From Actinomycetota bacterium (GTDB lineage Bacteria > Actinomycetota > Thermoleophilia > RBG-16-64-13), in assembly GCA_016278725.1 (NCBI GenBank), contig JADQBG010000009.1, positions 124,001-188,000 on the forward strand: a stretch of 64,000 nt of DNA, given 5' to 3'. The position numbers were made by a program, and so were the translations under genes. Positions 2,541 through 27,422 of this stretch are shown here, piece by piece. Below the pieces are notes generated by a model. That model saw nothing but the letters and a program-made list of their open reading frames with translations. It did no database searches and had not been told where the DNA came from. The first letter of the stretch is position 1, and each line of letters begins with the position of its first letter.

Positions 2541-2990
2541 ATGCACGAGGCAGATGCGGCCCGACTGGCGGAACTCTTGGGAGACGTCCGCCGGTTATTC
2601 AAGGAAAAGGTGACGACATGGGCCAACTCCCCGGGCGTGCCCCTGACCACGGTGGTGATGTTGCGGGAGGTGGCCCGCGACCCCGGCGTGGGCGTGAGCA
2701 TACTGGGGAGGAGGACGGGATTCTCCAAGGGCTACGTGTCCTCCACGGTGGAACAGATGGAGGAGGAGGGTCTGCTGCACAAAACCGCGCACCCCAAGGA
2801 TCAACGCTGCCTGCAGATACGCCTGACTCAGTCGGGCAGAGAGTTGCTCGATCGCCTGGAGGGTCAGTACGGCGCCTTCTGGGCGGAACTGCTGCACGAA
2901 GTGCCCGACGACGAAGCGGCGCAGATCATCGCCGCGCTCGAGCAGTTGCGAGCACGGCTAACGAATGAGAGAGAGGATGCCGGTGACTGA
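2541..2990 (+). CDS. MarR family transcriptional regulator
   Basis: 149 residues with a winged helix-turn-helix. The recognition-helix region reads RRTGFSKGYVSSTVEQMEEE and the wing region has HPKDQRCLQIRLTQSGREL, the standard MarR arrangement. The ATG at 2541 is preceded by GAGAGG. A longer in-frame start at 2487 would put the terminator-like hairpin inside the coding region and is disfavoured. The stop overlaps the start of the drug-efflux gene, so the two are co-translated. Such pairs are usually autorepressed and induced by the transporter's substrate. Confidence 0.85.
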   Translation: MHEADAARLAELLGDVRRLFKEKVTTWANSPGVPLTTVVMLREVARDPGVGVSILGRRTGFSKGYVSSTVEQMEEEGLLHKTAHPKDQRCLQIRLTQSGRELLDRLEGQYGAFWAELLHEVPDDEAAQIIAALEQLRARLTNEREDAGD

Positions 2991-4572
2991 ACCCGCGCAG
3001 GCGCTTCCTGCCCCCGCTTCCCCCGCCCCCGAACGCAACCCCTGGCTGGTCTTGTTGAGCGTGGCCCTGGGCCTCTTCATGGTCGTGGTGGACATGTCCA
3101 TCCTGAACATCGCTCTGCCGCAGATCGCCGGCAGCCTGAACGCCAGCATGGGCAGCATCCAATGGACCCTGATCGCCTACACCCTGCTGATGACGGCACT
3201 CGTCCCCTTGTTCGGCCGGATCAGCGATGTGATCGGGCGCAAACGCCTCTTCATGCTGGGCATGGCCATCTTCACCCTTGGCAGCTTGTTCGCCGGCCTC
3301 GCCACTTCGATCCTCTGGCTGATCGGAGCCCGCCTGGTCCAGGCCGTGGGCGGTGCCCTGATCAGCACGAACACCCTCGCCATCATCACCGACACCTTTC
3401 CCGAAGGGAAGCGGGGCGTGGCCATGGGCGCCCAGGCTATCTTGATCAGCGGGGGGGCCGCGATCGGCCCCACCTTGGGCGGCTTTCTGGTCACCAACTT
3501 TGGCTGGGAGTGGGTCTTCTTCGTCAATCTGCCCGTGGGCTTGATGGCGGTGATCCTGGCCTGGCGCATCCTGCCGCCGCTAAAGAGCAACCGGACGGCG
3601 GAACCGCTCGACTGGGTGGGAGCCGGCCTGATGATGACCGGTCTCGCCTCGACTCTGCTCGCGATCACTCAGGGTACGGCTTGGGGCTGGACCTCGGACG
3701 CGATCCTCGGTCTGGCCGCGCTGGGTGCCGCCACGCTTTCCTTGTTCGTGTGGTGGGAGCTCAGGGCACGCTTTCCCTTGGTCGACCTCTCGCTGTTTCG
3801 CATACGCTCCTTCACCGCGGGCCAGCTGGCCGGACTCTTCGGGACGGTGGCCTTTGCCGCGATGATGTTCCTGCTTCCCTTCTACTGGCAGGGTCTCCGC
3901 GGCTTGAGCGCGCAGGAGGCGGGGGTGATGATGCTCCCGCTACCCGCGGTGCTCATGGTGGTCGCGCCCTTATCCGGACGCCTTTCCGACAAACACGGAG
4001 CGCGGATCATCGCTTCGAGCGGCCTCCTGGTAGTGGCGCTTGCCCTCTTGCTCATCTCGTGGATCGACGCTCAGACCGCGGTGTGGAGCGTGCTTCTGCG
4101 GGTTGCCGTGTTGGGGTTGGGGCTGGGAATGTTCATGGCTCCGAACAACAACGCGGTCATGTCCAGTGCTCCCGCCCAGCGGCGGGGAATCGCTTCGGGC
4201 CTGCTGGCTACGTCTCGCTTCACGGGACAGAGCCTGGGCATCGCCTTCGTGGGTGCGGTAGTCGCGGGGGTGATGCGGACCGATCCCGATGTCACCAGCA
4301 ATACTCTGCCCTCGCCCGAGCAGTTCCACCGGCTGGCCGACAATCCCGCCGCGCTGCAGGCCTTCAGTGACACCTTCGTGCACGCCATGCACGTGGCCAC
4401 GCTGGCTGCGATTCCCTTCGCCCTGCTGGGTGTTGCCTTCTCCTTGAGCCGGAAGGGATCACCTGGAGGTCCGGAAGGCCCGGAGCGGATTGCCGAGGAG
4501 CCGGAGCCGAGGGAGGGGACCTTGCGGGCGAAGATCGGGTCCCCGGAACTGCAGCCGGGCTCCGAGCACTAG
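2977..4572 (+). CDS. DHA2-family MFS multidrug efflux transporter (EmrB/QacA type)
   Basis: 531 residues and about 14 hydrophobic segments. DMSILNIALPQI in TM1 and G-R-I-S-D-V-I-G-R-K-R in the loop between TM2 and TM3 are hallmark MFS motifs; RLVQAVGGALISTNTLAIIT corresponds to the antiporter motif region. The likely role is proton-driven export of hydrophobic or cationic drugs across the cytoplasmic membrane. The start at 2977 is chosen for the GAGAGAGG just upstream; an ATG at 2965 in the same frame has no ribosome-binding site. It overlaps marR by 14 nt. The hydrophilic tail after the last helix is charged and low complexity. Confidence 0.9.
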   Translation: MPVTEPAQALPAPASPAPERNPWLVLLSVALGLFMVVVDMSILNIALPQIAGSLNASMGSIQWTLIAYTLLMTALVPLFGRISDVIGRKRLFMLGMAIFTLGSLFAGLATSILWLIGARLVQAVGGALISTNTLAIITDTFPEGKRGVAMGAQAILISGGAAIGPTLGGFLVTNFGWEWVFFVNLPVGLMAVILAWRILPPLKSNRTAEPLDWVGAGLMMTGLASTLLAITQGTAWGWTSDAILGLAALGAATLSLFVWWELRARFPLVDLSLFRIRSFTAGQLAGLFGTVAFAAMMFLLPFYWQGLRGLSAQEAGVMMLPLPAVLMVVAPLSGRLSDKHGARIIASSGLLVVALALLLISWIDAQTAVWSVLLRVAVLGLGLGMFMAPNNNAVMSSAPAQRRGIASGLLATSRFTGQSLGIAFVGAVVAGVMRTDPDVTSNTLPSPEQFHRLADNPAALQAFSDTFVHAMHVATLAAIPFALLGVAFSLSRKGSPGGPEGPERIAEEPEPREGTLRAKIGSPELQPGSEH

Positions 4573-23164: not shown

Positions 23165-23386
23165 ATGGCGAAGGTCCCCGACGAACAGCAATACATGGAG
23201 CGGTGCATCTGCGGCAACTGTCCCAGCTATCCGGGCGAGGGTGGCTTTTTCTGCGCGAAAGGGAAGAGCAGTCAGTCGATCACGCGCCGCGGCTGCATCT
23301 GCGGAGACTGCGAGAATTTCAAAGAGTTTGACCTGAAGGACGGGTACTACTGCGCCGACGGCGCGGCCGGTGAGGGAGCGCAGTAG
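23165..23386 (+). CDS. DUF2769 cysteine-rich protein
   Basis: 73 residues and eight cysteines. It has two related blocks, C-I-C-G-N-C-P-S-Y and G-C-I-C-G-D-C-E-N-F, each followed by a downstream Cys (F-F-C-A-K-G, Y-Y-C-A-D-G). This is the DUF2769 pattern, a likely Zn or Fe-S binding small protein found mainly in anaerobes. GAGGAGG precedes the ATG and a strong terminator follows. It may functionally belong with the redox/selenium operon on the opposite strand (inference from proximity). Confidence 0.82.
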   Translation: MAKVPDEQQYMERCICGNCPSYPGEGGFFCAKGKSSQSITRRGCICGDCENFKEFDLKDGYYCADGAAGEGAQ

Positions 23387-23418
23387 AGACGCTGCAGTAG
23401 CTCCGCCTAGTCATGCCG

Positions 23419-23455
23419 CTACCGCCACCCCACCAAGAGGGTGGCGGTAGTTTTC
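23419..23455 (+). terminator. Strong rho-independent terminator
   Basis: CTACCGCCACCC and GGGTGGCGGTAG form a perfect 12-bp stem with an 8-nt loop, then TTTTC. It terminates the DUF2769 transcript. On the other strand there is no T-run. Confidence 0.9.
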
Positions 23456-23464
23456 AACTCCCCG

Positions 23465-24625
23465 TCAGACAGTGGCCAGCTTATCCTCGACCACTCGATG
23501 CGCCCTTACAAACTTGCTCAGGATGAACAGGTAGATGAGGATCGCTAGGTACACGCTGATGTAGTTGAGGGCCGATATCCCGGTGAACTGGACGAAGAAC
23601 CCGTAGACGTACACTCCCAAGACCTGGGAGCCGACGAAGGCTCACACGAAACCCCACTGGGAGGGGGCGAAGGCCGTCTTGGAAAACTCCGTCCTCAGGT
23701 AGTCCCGCACCACGTACACCGCCGCCACTCCCCAGCCAATCGCCAGGGCGTAGGAACCGGTTATAAGCAGAGACGTCGACCCGGGAACGTCCAACGCGAC
23801 CTGAGGCTGCACGTACTCGGCCACCCGGTAGGCGCCCAGTCCCAGCAGGCAGGAGATGGGAACCACCAAGAAAAAGCCCGGCAGAATGGGATTGGGGGGT
23901 AACTCCCGCGCCTTGATATGCGTGTAGAGCAAGAACCCCAACTTGGCGACCAACATTAGGACGCCGATCACCAGGGCAAAAACCGTTCCCACGGCGGCGA
24001 TGCCGGCTACCGTGTCGTTTTCGGCCATGGAAGTGATCCCGGAGCCGGTGAGCGTCACCAGGCCGAAGGCGAAGACGTCCAGCAGCCAGATGAAGTTGAA
24101 CTGGGTGAGGTCGACGCCTTCCGAGAACCAGGTCCGGCCGACCGTGACTTCGAGGAAGACGAGAACCGCCAGGAGCACGCCGAAGATGATCAGCGAGGGA
24201 AGCATGAACGCCTGCATGTGCGCGCTCATTTGCGGCACGAAGAAGCCGAAGGGCGCCCAGAAGACGTTCACCGTCATGGCGAGGGAAGCCACGATGGCGA
24301 AGATCCCCGCGTTCTGATTCTTGTGGGGATTGTTAACGAAGGCCCGGTAGGCCCCGCGCTCTGTGAGCCACCCCCACAGCCGCCCGAGAAAGTACACCGT
24401 GAGCGCGAAGTTGATGAGGGTAAAGGCGAGCATTATGGCCACGAGGGGCAGGTAGAGGGCGCTCTCGGCGCCGGAAAGCGTTCCCCAGCTCACGTTGGAG
24501 AGCGTGATCAGACCCTCGCTGTGGGGGATGCCAAACTGCAGGTAGTTGAAGGCCATGAGCGCGATGCCGCCCGCGGCCAGGGAGGACTGGAACAGCAACG
24601 GGTGAAACGGGATCCGCAGTTTCAC
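23465..24625 (-). CDS. Putative membrane selenoprotein, TsoY-like; in-frame TGA at codon 328
   Basis: Read straight through, the frame gives 386 residues: about ten hydrophobic helices starting HPLLFQSSLAAGGIALMAF, then S-Q-W-G-F-V, a TGA at 23642-23644, and 58 more residues (AFVGSQVLGVYVYGFFVQF ... VVEDKLATV) that form two further clean helices and a basic/acidic tail before TGA at 23465. No start codon or ribosome-binding site precedes the second part. A SECIS-like hairpin with GGUCU loop follows the TGA. From memory, an NCBI family called TsoY (seleno)protein fits; its function is unclear, probably a membrane component of sulfur/selenium redox chemistry. The GTG start has AGGAGG inside the end of the preceding gene. 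Confidence 0.78.
23614..23630 (-). promoter_or_regulatory. Predicted bacterial SECIS element for the TsoY-like TGA
   Basis: On the minus strand CTCCCA pairs with TGGGAG (6 bp, perfect), closing a 5-nt GGTCT loop. The loop starts 18 nt after the TGA. E. coli fdhF, from memory, has GGUCU in its SECIS loop at almost the same distance. Confidence 0.75.
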
Positions 24626-24627
24626 TG

Positions 24628-25500
24628 TTAGCCCTCCTTGATCCCGCTGTAGACGGATTTACAGGTGGGCGAGCTCTTGCCGGTTTTGGCGGCCTCGGCC
24701 GCTGCCGGAGTGGCGTGCTCCGTGCCCCCGAGGCGCTGGGCGTACGCCTCGGCGTCCAGTAGCTGGTCCTTCCACCCCTCCGTCGCCTGAATCTTGACCA
24801 GCCAGGTCTCATGCGGATTCTCGTTGACCGCCGCCGCGGTGGCCTCGGGGTTGGCTTTCAGCGCCTTCCCGGCGATTGGGCTGAGGAAGTACTTCATGTT
24901 CTTCTTGGTCGTGGCGAAGGCGATCTCTTGGTCGACGACCAGGTCCTCGCCCACCTCGGGAAAGACTTCGAGGTCGATGAGGCCGCCCATAAGGGCCACC
25001 CCCGGCTCAGATACACCGACTACTACGGCGTCTTCGTCGGCGCCCGCCTCGCTCTTCACCCAGTACTGGCGCGCCCCGTCGTAGAGCCGGTCGCCCGGCA
25101 GGTCGAAGTCCTTCCCCAAAAAGCCCTCGAGTTTCGCCATGCTCTCCCCCTTGTCGTGCTCTCTCCACCTCGCGGCGAGCCCGTCTCCCGTTTGCAACTG
25201 TTCGCGTAGCACCTCGCGCAGAAGGTCGCAGGCCTGGACCATCTTCGGATAGGCCACGCGGTAGTAGATCTCGTTGCCGTCCCGGCGTGTGCGCACCAGG
25301 CCCAGGTGCCTCAGTACGGCGAGGTGCTGGGAAACTAGTGGTTGCCTGGTTCCCACCATCTCGGAGAGGTCATTAACCCTGCGCTCGCCCTCGCTTAGAA
25401 CCTTCATCAGCTCGACGCGCAGGGGATGGGCAAGGGTTTTGCACACCTCGGCGTGCATCTCGTAGAGTCTCGGGTCGATAGGGTGACCCCGCTCGGCCAT
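24628..25500 (-). CDS. ArsR-type HTH fused to GcvH-like (lipoate carrier) domain, with a nested start
   Basis: 290 residues. Positions 15-95 are an ArsR winged helix (KTLAHPLRVELMKVL; RQPLVSQHLAVLRHLGLV; DGNEIYYRV). Positions 121-245 resemble glycine-cleavage H protein or sulfur-oxidation LbpA: DLEVFPEVGEDLVVDQEIAF, with Lys200 in ATTKKNMKYFLSP aligning with the lipoylated lysine. There is no stop between the parts, but an in-frame ATG at 25138-25140 is preceded by AAGGGGGAG, so a free 170-residue carrier is probably made too. The ATG at 25500 overlaps nothing and lies 2 nt after the DsrE-like stop. I infer it regulates this operon and/or senses its redox state. Confidence 0.8.
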   Translation of the reverse strand: MAERGHPIDPRLYEMHAEVCKTLAHPLRVELMKVLSEGERRVNDLSEMVGTRQPLVSQHLAVLRHLGLVRTRRDGNEIYYRVAYPKMVQACDLLREVLREQLQTGDGLAARWREHDKGESMAKLEGFLGKDFDLPGDRLYDGARQYWVKSEAGADEDAVVVGVSEPGVALMGGLIDLEVFPEVGEDLVVDQEIAFATTKKNMKYFLSPIAGKALKANPEATAAAVNENPHETWLVKIQATEGWKDQLLDAEAYAQRLGGTEHATPAAAEAAKTGKSSPTCKSVYSGIKEG

Positions 25501-25502
25501 CG

Positions 25503-25856
25503 TTAGTAGACCACCACCTTGTCCGCCTCCATCGTCCACTCAGCGAGTAGATCCATGGATCCGCGAACGGTACCGTCGATCATCGCGTGGGACGCCAGAC
25601 CACGGGCGTCCATGCAGCTACCTCACAACCCCACCGCGGCCCTTTTGGCCATGAGGCCCTTCAGCATGCGCTCCGCCGAGTAGTAGCCCTCGGGTGGCGC
25701 TTGGCCCGCCAAGGCGCAGGCCGTGGCGTCCGCCGTCAGGAAGACCTTCACCTGTGCGTCATCCTGCTTGGCCACCGCGAGCGCATGGCGCAGGGCGTTG
25801 TAGGAGCGCTCAGATCCGTAGGGTGCGTCGTTCAGCACAAAAAGCACTGATCCCAT
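25503..25856 (-). CDS. Putative DsrE-family selenoprotein; in-frame TGA at codon 78 (U-G-S-C)
   Basis: Read through the TGA at 25623-25625 the frame gives a full-length 117-residue DsrE/DsrF-like protein: M-G-S-V-L-F-V-L-N-D-A-P-Y-G, E-G-Y-Y-S-A-E-R-M-L-K-G-L, then U-G-S-C-M-D-A-R-G-L and finally S-M-D-L-L-A-E-W-T-M-E-A-D-K-V-V-V-Y, stop TAA. In ordinary family members the segment reads C-G-T/S-C-M-D-A-R-G, so the TGA sits exactly at the first Cys of the redox pair. A hairpin with GGUCU loop follows. DsrE proteins carry persulfide sulfur on Cys; here Sec would be the reactive atom. It is first gene of the operon. Confidence 0.82.
25590..25611 (-). promoter_or_regulatory. Predicted bacterial SECIS element for the DsrE-like TGA
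   Basis: On the minus strand GGACGCC pairs with GGCGTCC (7 bp, perfect) around the 8-nt loop CGTGGTCT. The stem starts 12 nt after the TGA codon. The GGTCT in the loop is shared with the TsoY-like hairpin. Confidence 0.78.
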
Positions 25857-25894
25857 CTAGTCCCCATCCCCCCGGCACGGCATTGGTAGGATAA

Positions 25895-25940
25895 GCAGGA
25901 TATCGCATTATCGCTATGTTGCAACTATGTATTTGCAGGG
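25895..25940 (-). promoter_or_regulatory. AT-rich promoter/operator of the selenoprotein operon
   Basis: An AT-rich island in GC-rich surroundings contains the palindrome GTTGCAAC (25918-25925) flanked by repeated CATAG/ATAT blocks. ArsR-type repressors bind such AT-rich dyads, so autoregulation by the ArsR-GcvH protein is plausible. Confidence 0.4.
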
Positions 25941-26069
25941 CGCCGCGTATCGAACCAGGGCCGTCATCAGGCGGCCCGCGGCCCTGGTTCTTCCCGGTTT
26001 CAACCTTGGCCGTCGAGCCGCGTATCTTTGGCCGCCTTGTCCAGGGCTTCTTTGCAGGGCGCAACTACA

Positions 26070-27422
26070 TCAAGACCCGAACGCGAAGAGAGGTGGGAGA
26101 ACTATGACCACGCCGGCGGCCCACAGTCCGAAGACGGGCAGGTACCTCGTCTGCCACCGGGCCAGGCGGTCGAAGGTGGCTCGGCCGGTGAGCAGCCGCA
26201 GCGAGAGCCAGGCTGCCCCGAGAAGGTTCACCAGGAGTACGAGGTTCAGGCCAAGAGCGGCCACGCGGTTGGGGGTGAACCCCAGGTCGCCGATCCGGGC
26301 CAGCATCGAGGCGAGCACCATCATGTCGAGAACCAGGGCGGCGGCGACCGCCACGAGCTGAACGACGTCCATGAAGCCTGCTCTCTGCGACGACTCTCGT
26401 GCCGAAAGCCCGTAGAGGACCAGCCCAAGCACGACGATCAGGAGGGCGTCGAACACGGCGAGCTGTTCCCGGTCGAACTCGCTGCCGAGCCCGGTTACCG
26501 CGTAGGTGAGCGCGGAGCCGGTCAGCATCAGCGCGAAGAGAGGGGTGAAGACCATGGTGAGCACGGGCGCCATGTTCTCGACCACGCTCTGCTTCGCTCC
26601 GACCAGCCACGCAGCCACGATCACCGCTCCGGCGGCCCCTGAGGGAATTACCCACTCGATGACACTCTCACCGAGGCCCGCGCGCACGGGTTCGAGGATG
26701 GCCAGGGTGAGCCCCATCAACACCCCTCCGCCGAGGGCGATCAGCACGTAGTAGATGAACCACTCCCCGCTGAAGCGCACGAAGTCCATGCGCCTCTCGT
26801 GAGAGCGCCACTCGCCGCCCACATACGCGTAGCCCACGGCGAACCACAAGGCCACGGGCAGGTGCAGCGCCGCGAGCATCTCGGTGGAGGACTCCGGGTC
26901 GAAGGGATAGAGGTTCATGACCAGAGCCCCCAACACGAACGGTGCCGCCGTCGGCAGGCTCTGGCGGAGGGGCAGCTTGCGCCGCTGGGCGAAGTACCAG
27001 GCGAGGAAAGGCAGCACGAAGAGGCTGACGTTGCGCGCGAACCATGGCGAGGGATCACCCGACCAGCCGTCTCCTCTGAGCGCGATCTGAATCGTGATGG
27101 CGGCGGCGACGGCAAAGAGGAGTGCTTCAATTAAACCGTTCGAATTGCGTCCCGAATCCGACTCGGACTTGGATGGCAACACCAGTTGCTTCCAGAGCCG
27201 GTCGCTGTGCTCCAGCGCGAACTCCCGGGACAGCCCGTCGATATCCCCCATCCGTTTGACGGCGACCAGGAAGGCCTCGTCGCCGGTGAGACCGCCCGCT
27301 TGCAGGTCGGCCATCTGATCGCGAAGATGGGTCTCCAGTTCATCGATATCGGGTTCGGCGACGGTGCGTGAACGGCCGACGTAGGCCCGCCATTCGGCGA
27401 TCCGTGACTCGAGAACGTCCAT
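26070..27422 (-). CDS. Permease-prefix-domain membrane protein
   Basis: 450 residues. The N-terminal 80 are soluble and helical (IAEWRAYVGRSRTVAEPDID, later V-K-R-M-G-D-I-D-G-L-S-R-E-F), matching the permease prefix domain 1 found in proteins paired with PadR regulators. About ten hydrophobic segments follow, DUF4153-like. It starts 4 nt after the PadR stop. The usual inference is an envelope-stress or antimicrobial-response membrane protein controlled by the PadR repressor; the substrate is unknown. Confidence 0.75.
   Translation of the reverse strand: MDVLESRIAEWRAYVGRSRTVAEPDIDELETHLRDQMADLQAGGLTGDEAFLVAVKRMGDIDGLSREFALEHSDRLWKQLVLPSKSESDSGRNSNGLIEALLFAVAAAITIQIALRGDGWSGDPSPWFARNVSLFVLPFLAWYFAQRRKLPLRQSLPTAAPFVLGALVMNLYPFDPESSTEMLAALHLPVALWFAVGYAYVGGEWRSHERRMDFVRFSGEWFIYYVLIALGGGVLMGLTLAILEPVRAGLGESVIEWVIPSGAAGAVIVAAWLVGAKQSVVENMAPVLTMVFTPLFALMLTGSALTYAVTGLGSEFDREQLAVFDALLIVVLGLVLYGLSARESSQRAGFMDVVQLVAVAAALVLDMMVLASMLARIGDLGFTPNRVAALGLNLVLLVNLLGAAWLSLRLLTGRATFDRLARWQTRYLPVFGLWAAGVVIVLPPLFAFGS

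Follow-up and report, generated by a model that had tools for sequence, protein, structure and literature searches.

Can a bacterial repressor and a carrier protein be joined in a single polypeptide, and does a gene for such a protein also produce the carrier on its own? This question is raised by an open reading frame in the 64,000-nucleotide stretch of DNA analyzed here (the window). The frame had been proposed to encode an ArsR-type regulator fused to a GcvH-type lipoate carrier, with a second translation start nested at the domain boundary. One gene might then supply both a regulator with a tethered carrier and a free carrier.

Results

An ArsR repressor and a GcvH-fold carrier share one reading frame

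The proposed one-frame fusion without an intervening stop was borne out, as a protein of 290 amino acids (Table 1). Its coding strand is the minus strand; the plus strand of 24628-25500 is broken by stops, and a plus-strand reading of this interval was rejected for that reason.

Table 1. Features of the fusion gene and its operon in the window (numbering of the forward strand).
Feature	Position	Strand	Remarks
Operator-like site TTGCAACATAGCGAT	25910..25924	(-)	upstream of dsrE; 15 bp; from aligned dsrE upstream regions
dsrE-type selenoprotein gene	25503..25856	(-)	117 codons; Sec TGA 25625-25623; stop TAA 25505-25503
Candidate bacterial SECIS hairpin	25590..25611	(-)	after the dsrE TGA; 7 bp, 8-nt loop
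arsR::gcvH fusion gene	24628..25500	(-)	290 aa; open frame from ATG 25500 to TAA 24630-24628
ArsR winged-helix domain	25189..25479	(-)	approximately aa 8-104; HTH_5, NF033788, fold
Internal Shine-Dalgarno sequence AAGGGGGAG	25144..25152	(-)	-9.1 kcal/mol; identical in both fused species
Internal ATG (Met121)	25138..25140	(-)	aligned with start codons of free-standing gcvH
GcvH-fold carrier domain	24631..25140	(-)	aa 121-290; GCV_H, fold, Lys alignment, conservation
tsoY selenoprotein gene	23465..24625	(-)	GTG start; Sec TGA 23644-23642; stop TGA 23467-23465
13-bp hairpin, probable transcript end	23419..23450	(-)	after tsoY; -27.9 kcal/mol, z -3.11

In a Pfam search, residues 140-256 matched GCV_H (39.9 bits, cut-off 22.2), as had been expected. 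The winged helix had been expected to match HTH_20, but this model stayed under its cut-off (21.5 versus 27 bits), and residues 26-70 matched HTH_5 instead (49.8 bits, cut-off 22). With 83.3 bits against NF033788 (cut-off 55), the N-terminal half is an ArsR/SmtB domain. An AlphaFold model from a 25-row alignment (mean pLDDT 87.4, pTM 0.61) has two well-folded domains, a weak connecting block at residues 111-120 (mean pLDDT 59) and a low-confidence C-terminal tail (278-290); it gave no confident placement of the ArsR and GcvH domains relative to each other. Superposed on known structures, the carrier domain fitted the E. coli H-protein with Z 18.7 and an rmsd of 1.6 over 124 residues, and the ArsR domain fitted SmtB, CzrA and BigR with Z 12.7-14.1.

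The fusion is confined to one genus and conserved within it

Homologues were searched for in 61 genomes, i.e., the window's own (G000) and 60 relatives. The only other full-length match, at 92% identity, came from G001, the sole other genome of the genus drawn for this set. In a sample of 396 genomes from the phylum, G000 and G001 were again the only two with a match spanning both domains at E 1e-18. The two fused genes share the same junction and 89% DNA identity over 852 aligned bases with zero insertions or deletions. The dN/dS ratio between the two species is low in the ArsR part (0.024) and the carrier (0.10) and higher in the 21-codon linker (0.46); the C-terminal 33 residues are free of amino-acid changes. 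Judged from these rates, purifying selection acts on both halves in the fused frame. With the same fusion maintained by selection in a second species, the comparison excludes a sequencing error for practical purposes. Within the genomes searched, the fusion is restricted to one genus, represented by two assemblies of uncultured bacteria. We conclude that it is a real, genus-restricted new domain architecture made of parts of known kinds. The literature searched (titles and abstract openings, with most subscription papers outside its coverage) held no earlier account of an ArsR-GcvH fusion.

In sister genera, arsR and gcvH are separate genes at three loci. The two genes of G006 have a 32-nt overlap and lie in different frames; the arsR stop precedes the gcvH start by 55 nt in G004 and by 11 nt on contig C70 of G013. 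The original prediction had named separate genes in relatives as the sign of an artefact; such genes do exist, but an artefact is not implied, since the second species is fused too. Further dsrE-arsR pairs, in G005 (twice), G012 and G015, are without a recognised adjoining gcvH. We propose that arsR and gcvH were adjacent or overlapping in the ancestor and that a frame change in this genus would have dropped the arsR stop and merged the two genes.

G013 has a second dsrE-arsR-gcvH set at two contig ends, those of C64 and C58 (L046 5918-6409 and L051 1-355, both minus). The two ends are in compatible frames, and the gcvH part (C58) starts at the contig end. We did not score this set as another fusion, because the overlap of the ends is only 4 nt and the gcvH part has a TAA in frame; it is possibly a fusion or a decayed copy. 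Close to its N-terminus, the free carrier of the same genome (L045 2908-3591, minus) contains a long low-complexity insertion rich in Ala and Thr, which is shorter in G004.

The fusion gene lies between two selenoprotein genes

The operon has the order dsrE(Sec)-[arsR::gcvH]-tsoY(Sec), and thus places the fusion between two selenoprotein genes. Neither these flanking genes nor the operator-like site described below had been part of the original prediction. dsrE ends two bases upstream of the fusion gene, and its product falls into the DsrE/DsrF family (DsrE, 75.3 bits, cut-off 22.7). Its in-frame TGA, in the context ...GLUGSCMDARG... (UGSC), is found in 10/10 family copies from eight genomes, and a Cys takes its place in all ten matches from other families of the class. 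We read the dsrE product, with its TGA aligned to the Cys of the homologues, as a DsrE-type selenoprotein. In the helix of the candidate SECIS hairpin, 61 of 63 cells were paired (96.8%) across nine sequences, with one pair changed on both sides in two of the nine. Single-sequence folds were no better than base-composition shuffles (z 1.02 to -1.55), and a SECIS claim from such folding was dropped; the support for the candidate consists of the shared helix with its one two-sided change.

Directly downstream of the fusion, tsoY encodes a SLAC1-like membrane selenoprotein. Read through its TGA, TsoY scored 519.3 bits against NF047643 (cut-off 250) and covered the model to its last position. Its Sec motif in the window, U-A-F-V, fits the UxxV motif with which TsoY is listed (PMC13188914). 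At the hairpin behind tsoY, a terminator pattern scan gave a terminator-like site on the plus strand only. Moreover, the window's own genome has a tRNA-Sec (74.9 bits, anticodon TCA) and a SelB over its cut-off. Convergent on tsoY, a 73-aa Cys-rich open reading frame (23165-23386, plus) contains CICGNCPSYPGEGGFFCAKGK, repeated in similar form.

An operator-like site precedes the operon

Alignment of the sequence ahead of dsrE yielded the pattern TTGYAAYATNGCRAT. Of its nine occurrences in 18 family genomes, all (9/9) lie upstream of a dsrE-arsR pair; they fall in exactly the eight genomes that have this pair, and none of the ten others has one. Since the pattern was built from the same loci, its presence there is by construction, and the evidence lies in its absence elsewhere, over about 50 million bases. 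By chance, 0.27 occurrences are expected in the 18 genomes under a first-order model of the window's composition; the reversed pattern had no occurrence in them. A tenth dsrE copy (G005 C217) is without TTGYAAYATNGCRAT and has a more symmetric variant, ATATCGCTATATTGCGATAT, instead. Both fused species have kept the operator-like site. As the motif stands only beside dsrE-arsR, it is very probable that the operon is repressed by its own ArsR half via this predicted operator.

The nine aligned sites have TTGYAA, 16 nt and TANNNT in common, in the window TTGCAA, 16 nt and TATCCT (25902-25897). From this spacing, it is probable that the operator-like site and the promoter overlap, although no promoter was found when 23300-26100 was scanned with a consensus.

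The domain boundary retains the start of a free-standing carrier gene

On the message strand, the boundary reads GACAAGGGGGAGAGCATGGCG, i.e., AAGGGGGAG (25152-25144), AGC and ATG (25140-25138). A Shine-Dalgarno sequence and an ATG are hence found exactly where they had been predicted (25152-25138, minus strand), and both are kept in the second fused species. Met121 (MAKLEGFLGKD) aligns with the gcvH starts MAKVKGFLGRD and MAIVKNFLGRD at the three loci of the sister genera. Because the start codons of free gcvH genes align with Met121, we take the internal start of the window gene to be the ancestral gcvH start.

Pairing with the anti-Shine-Dalgarno sequence amounts to -9.1 kcal/mol in both fused species, compared with -9.8, -7.0 and -6.1 kcal/mol in the separate gcvH genes. 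Among in-frame internal ATGs of window reading frames of at least 250 aa, 16 of 249 paired equally well. Shine-Dalgarno strength alone is thus unremarkable, and this control weakens it as proof of internal initiation; what chance leaves unexplained is the alignment with the gcvH starts and the keeping in a second species. Between the two fused species, GAC AAG GGG GAG and the ATG are unchanged, and codons 113-115 and 120 have changed. Codons 104-112 are, however, just as identical, so that nucleotide conservation of the Shine-Dalgarno sequence fails as proof, too. Since both fused species have retained the ancestral start with its Shine-Dalgarno sequence, production of a free carrier is plausible. 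From these features, we consider use of the Met121 start by ribosomes moderately probable, and two products, a tethered repressor and a free carrier, are likely made from the one gene.

The carrier keeps the lipoyl-lysine

Lys200 (24903-24901, minus) does align, as had been claimed, with the lipoyl-lysine of the solved H-proteins from T. thermophilus, M. marinum and E. coli. Loss of this lysine in homologues, named beforehand as an argument against the claim, was looked for, and Lys200 turned out to be kept in the window and in all five orthologue copies read. The C-terminal tail SPTC(K/R)S holds Cys280 (24663-24661, minus), which the orthologues keep as well. Lys200 is preceded by TTK, compared with ESV in H-proteins, and given this TTK, lipoylating enzymes may reject it. 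No ligase gene was seen adjoining the fusion gene; LipB is present in the genome, so lipoylation is possible in principle.

The same genome has two further GcvH-related proteins. On contig C23 (L054:5599-6813), a GcvH domain with the lipoyl-lysine and an arsenite-methyltransferase-like domain form one 405-aa frame, and its G001 counterpart has an equally long open frame. The GcvH-related protein on contig C25 (L053:5767-6270) has Leu at the lipoyl-lysine position, and likewise its G001 counterpart (L112).

Repressor cysteines and gene neighbours point to sulfur

In the ArsR half, Cys20 (25443-25441) and Cys91 (25230-25228) are present in 10/10 family copies, and Lys33 stands at the position of the first sensing Cys of both BigR and SqrR. 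At seven relative loci (G006, G004, G013 twice, G005 C115, G012 and G015), a gene for a pyridine nucleotide-disulfide-type flavoprotein adjoins dsrE, pointing away from it in at least six of the seven. The G006 flavoprotein scored 72 bits with Pyr_redox_2, and 109 versus 525 bits with the sulfide:quinone reductase model NF049943. Methionine gamma-lyase-like genes lie near the loci of G006, G005 C115, G012 and G013 C64, and NifS-like genes near that of G015, similar ones being present on G013 C58 and G005 C217. Neighbours of these three kinds (SQR-like, methionine gamma-lyase-like, NifS-like) are absent beside the window's own operon. From the cysteine and carrier features and the sulfur neighbours of the relatives, the operon most likely serves sulfane-sulfur or sulfur/selenium handling, the substrate being inferred.

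In G007 (L052:5668-7336), a related ArsR gene lies directly ahead of a gene for a type III sulfide quinone reductase, selenoprotein subtype (616 bits, cut-off 525), which has no in-frame stop in the stretch scanned. In G013 (L046 approximately 2790-3470, minus), an ArsR domain is in frame with a domain that by eye looks like a rhodanese, which would be a further case of a repressor linked to a domain of the sulfur-carrier type.

The locus varies known sulfur regulator and carrier systems

The Tso neighbourhood (Haft and Tolstoy 2025) comprises, according to the review PMC13188914 and NCBIfam names, TsoR, TsoY, TsoX and the GcvH-related protein NF045810. The window operon resembles it in having TsoY, an ArsR regulator and a GcvH-related domain alongside, and selenoproteins in one operon. 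In contrast to Tso, its ArsR half reached 46.1 of 115 bits with TsoR (NF045707) and its carrier (aa 124-289) 94.9 of 150 bits with NF045810, where the free G006 homologue reached 105.3; TsoX had no match in G000 and exceeded its cut-off in 0/18 genomes. Also, the first selenoprotein here is of DsrE type, and a fusion stands in place of the two middle genes.

sHdr sulfur oxidation is described with an LbpA carrier, a DsrE-type protein and the ArsR repressor sHdrR (PMC6067878; PMC12423496). It shares with the window a GcvH-like carrier with lysine and C-terminal Cys, a DsrE-family partner and an ArsR repressor. LbpA is reported to combine the lysine with N-terminal and C-terminal Cys, some archaeal exceptions aside (PMC6067878), whereas the window carrier has C280 only and no N-terminal Cys. 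Unlike sHdr, the operon (dsrE, fusion, tsoY) is without hdr genes, has selenocysteine in DsrE and a repressor fused to the carrier, and places the sensing cysteines elsewhere.

The persulfide-responsive repressors BigR and SqrR (PDB 3pqk, 6o8l) share the fold of the ArsR half and are its closest solved sequences after Rv0081, but their first sensing Cys is replaced by Lys33, with C20 and C91 present instead. The carrier likewise shares fold (Z 18.2-18.7) and lysine position with the glycine cleavage H-protein (PDB 3a7l, 1onl), but differs in its 26-28% identity, the TTK ahead of the lysine, the SPTC tail and its gene neighbours. On the features tested, we hence rejected a filing as LbpA, TsoR, BigR/SqrR or ordinary GcvH; the locus is a variant of known sulfur regulator and carrier systems.

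Discussion

We propose that the ArsR half dimerises and would repress the operon at TTGYAAYATNGCRAT, releasing it once Cys20/Cys91 encounter reactive sulfur or a comparable soft reagent. As ribosomes would initiate at Met121 too, the cell would have a repressor with a tethered carrier alongside a 170-aa carrier on its own. The GcvH half would be lipoylated on Lys200 and exchange sulfur or electrons with the selenocysteine of DsrE; Cys280 might bind sulfur as a second site, and TsoY would transport a compound of sulfur or selenium through the membrane. The sequence itself shows a conserved fusion flanked by selenoprotein genes, a motif upstream of the operon, and retention of both the lysine and the internal start. 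For the regulator-plus-carrier gene of a short Sec operon as a whole, with ArsR autorepression, a lipoylated carrier, a dual start and TsoY transport together, we see about even chances. Counted against it are the TTK ahead of Lys200, Lys33 at the sensing-Cys position of BigR/SqrR, the lack of sulfur neighbours beside the window's own operon, the relatives that have dsrE-arsR but no recognised adjoining gcvH, the 16 of 249 internal ATGs that pair as well, and the occurrence in two assemblies of one genus.

The internal ATG and Shine-Dalgarno sequence might instead be relics of the old gcvH start; the fused protein would then be the sole product at useful levels, and the carrier would work exclusively within the repressor protein. 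A recent fusion found in one genus fits with this, as do the 16 of 249 internal ATGs with an equally good Shine-Dalgarno sequence and the conservation of codons 104-112, from which no special constraint on that sequence follows. However, a repressor is usually needed in small and a carrier in larger amounts, and Shine-Dalgarno sequence and ATG stayed unchanged although codons 113-115 and 120 changed; we consider this alternative quite possible, but less probable than not. That the carrier domain, free or fused, is the H-protein of the glycine cleavage system would account for the gcvT-gcvPA-gcvPB genes without adjoining gcvH in the same genome (L135:1227-5318), where a whole-genome search found three GcvH-like places only, one of them without the lysine; the same query does detect an ordinary GcvH in G008. 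The gcvH-less operon is, however, also found in G001, G003, G004, G006 and G009 and is hence not tied to the fusion (six family genomes in all; L135, L136, L138, L139, L140, L141). Moreover, the carrier lies within the dsrE-arsR operon in every orthologue with a readable upstream side, and the C23 GcvH domain, whose lysine is intact, could do the job in its place; we regard the H-protein role as very unlikely. An artefact that lost a stop or frame between two genes might be suspected from the many-contig assemblies and the separate genes of sister genera, but against the same junction in two species at 89% DNA identity, with zero indels over 852 aligned bases, it is so improbable as to be negligible.

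The original prediction further held that the regulator could read the redox or acyl state of its own carrier, and for this we found no direct support: the model offers no confident domain arrangement (pTM 0.61), and the repressor has a conserved C20/C91 pair of its own. In this form, DNA binding by the repressor would depend on the redox state or sulfur loading of the lipoyl domain tethered to it. A tether conserved in two species under purifying selection, an ArsR half that keeps its operator-like site and the kept lipoyl-lysine speak for such control; the lack of a confident interdomain contact in the model, the presence of the Cys pair also in relatives whose carrier is separate or was not found, and the fast-evolving linker (dN/dS 0.46) speak against it, and we regard it as rather unlikely. 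Unlikely, too, is an extended version in which the tethered carrier, charged by the operon's Sec DsrE, would set the hold on the operator, and the internal start would give a free worker carrier. If this were true, sensor and worker would be the same domain.

Bacterial sulfane-sulfur metabolism repeatedly makes use of GcvH-like carriers, DsrE proteins and ArsR repressors. In the window, repressor and carrier have become one polypeptide, and selenocysteine is used by both the partner protein and the membrane protein. With an operator-like site that is defined and single-copy, and with untethered genes in close relatives, the locus offers a natural before/after experiment on whether tethering turns a carrier into a sensor. 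It further lends itself to testing whether internal initiation yields two products from a single gene, and provides a functional lead for TsoY.
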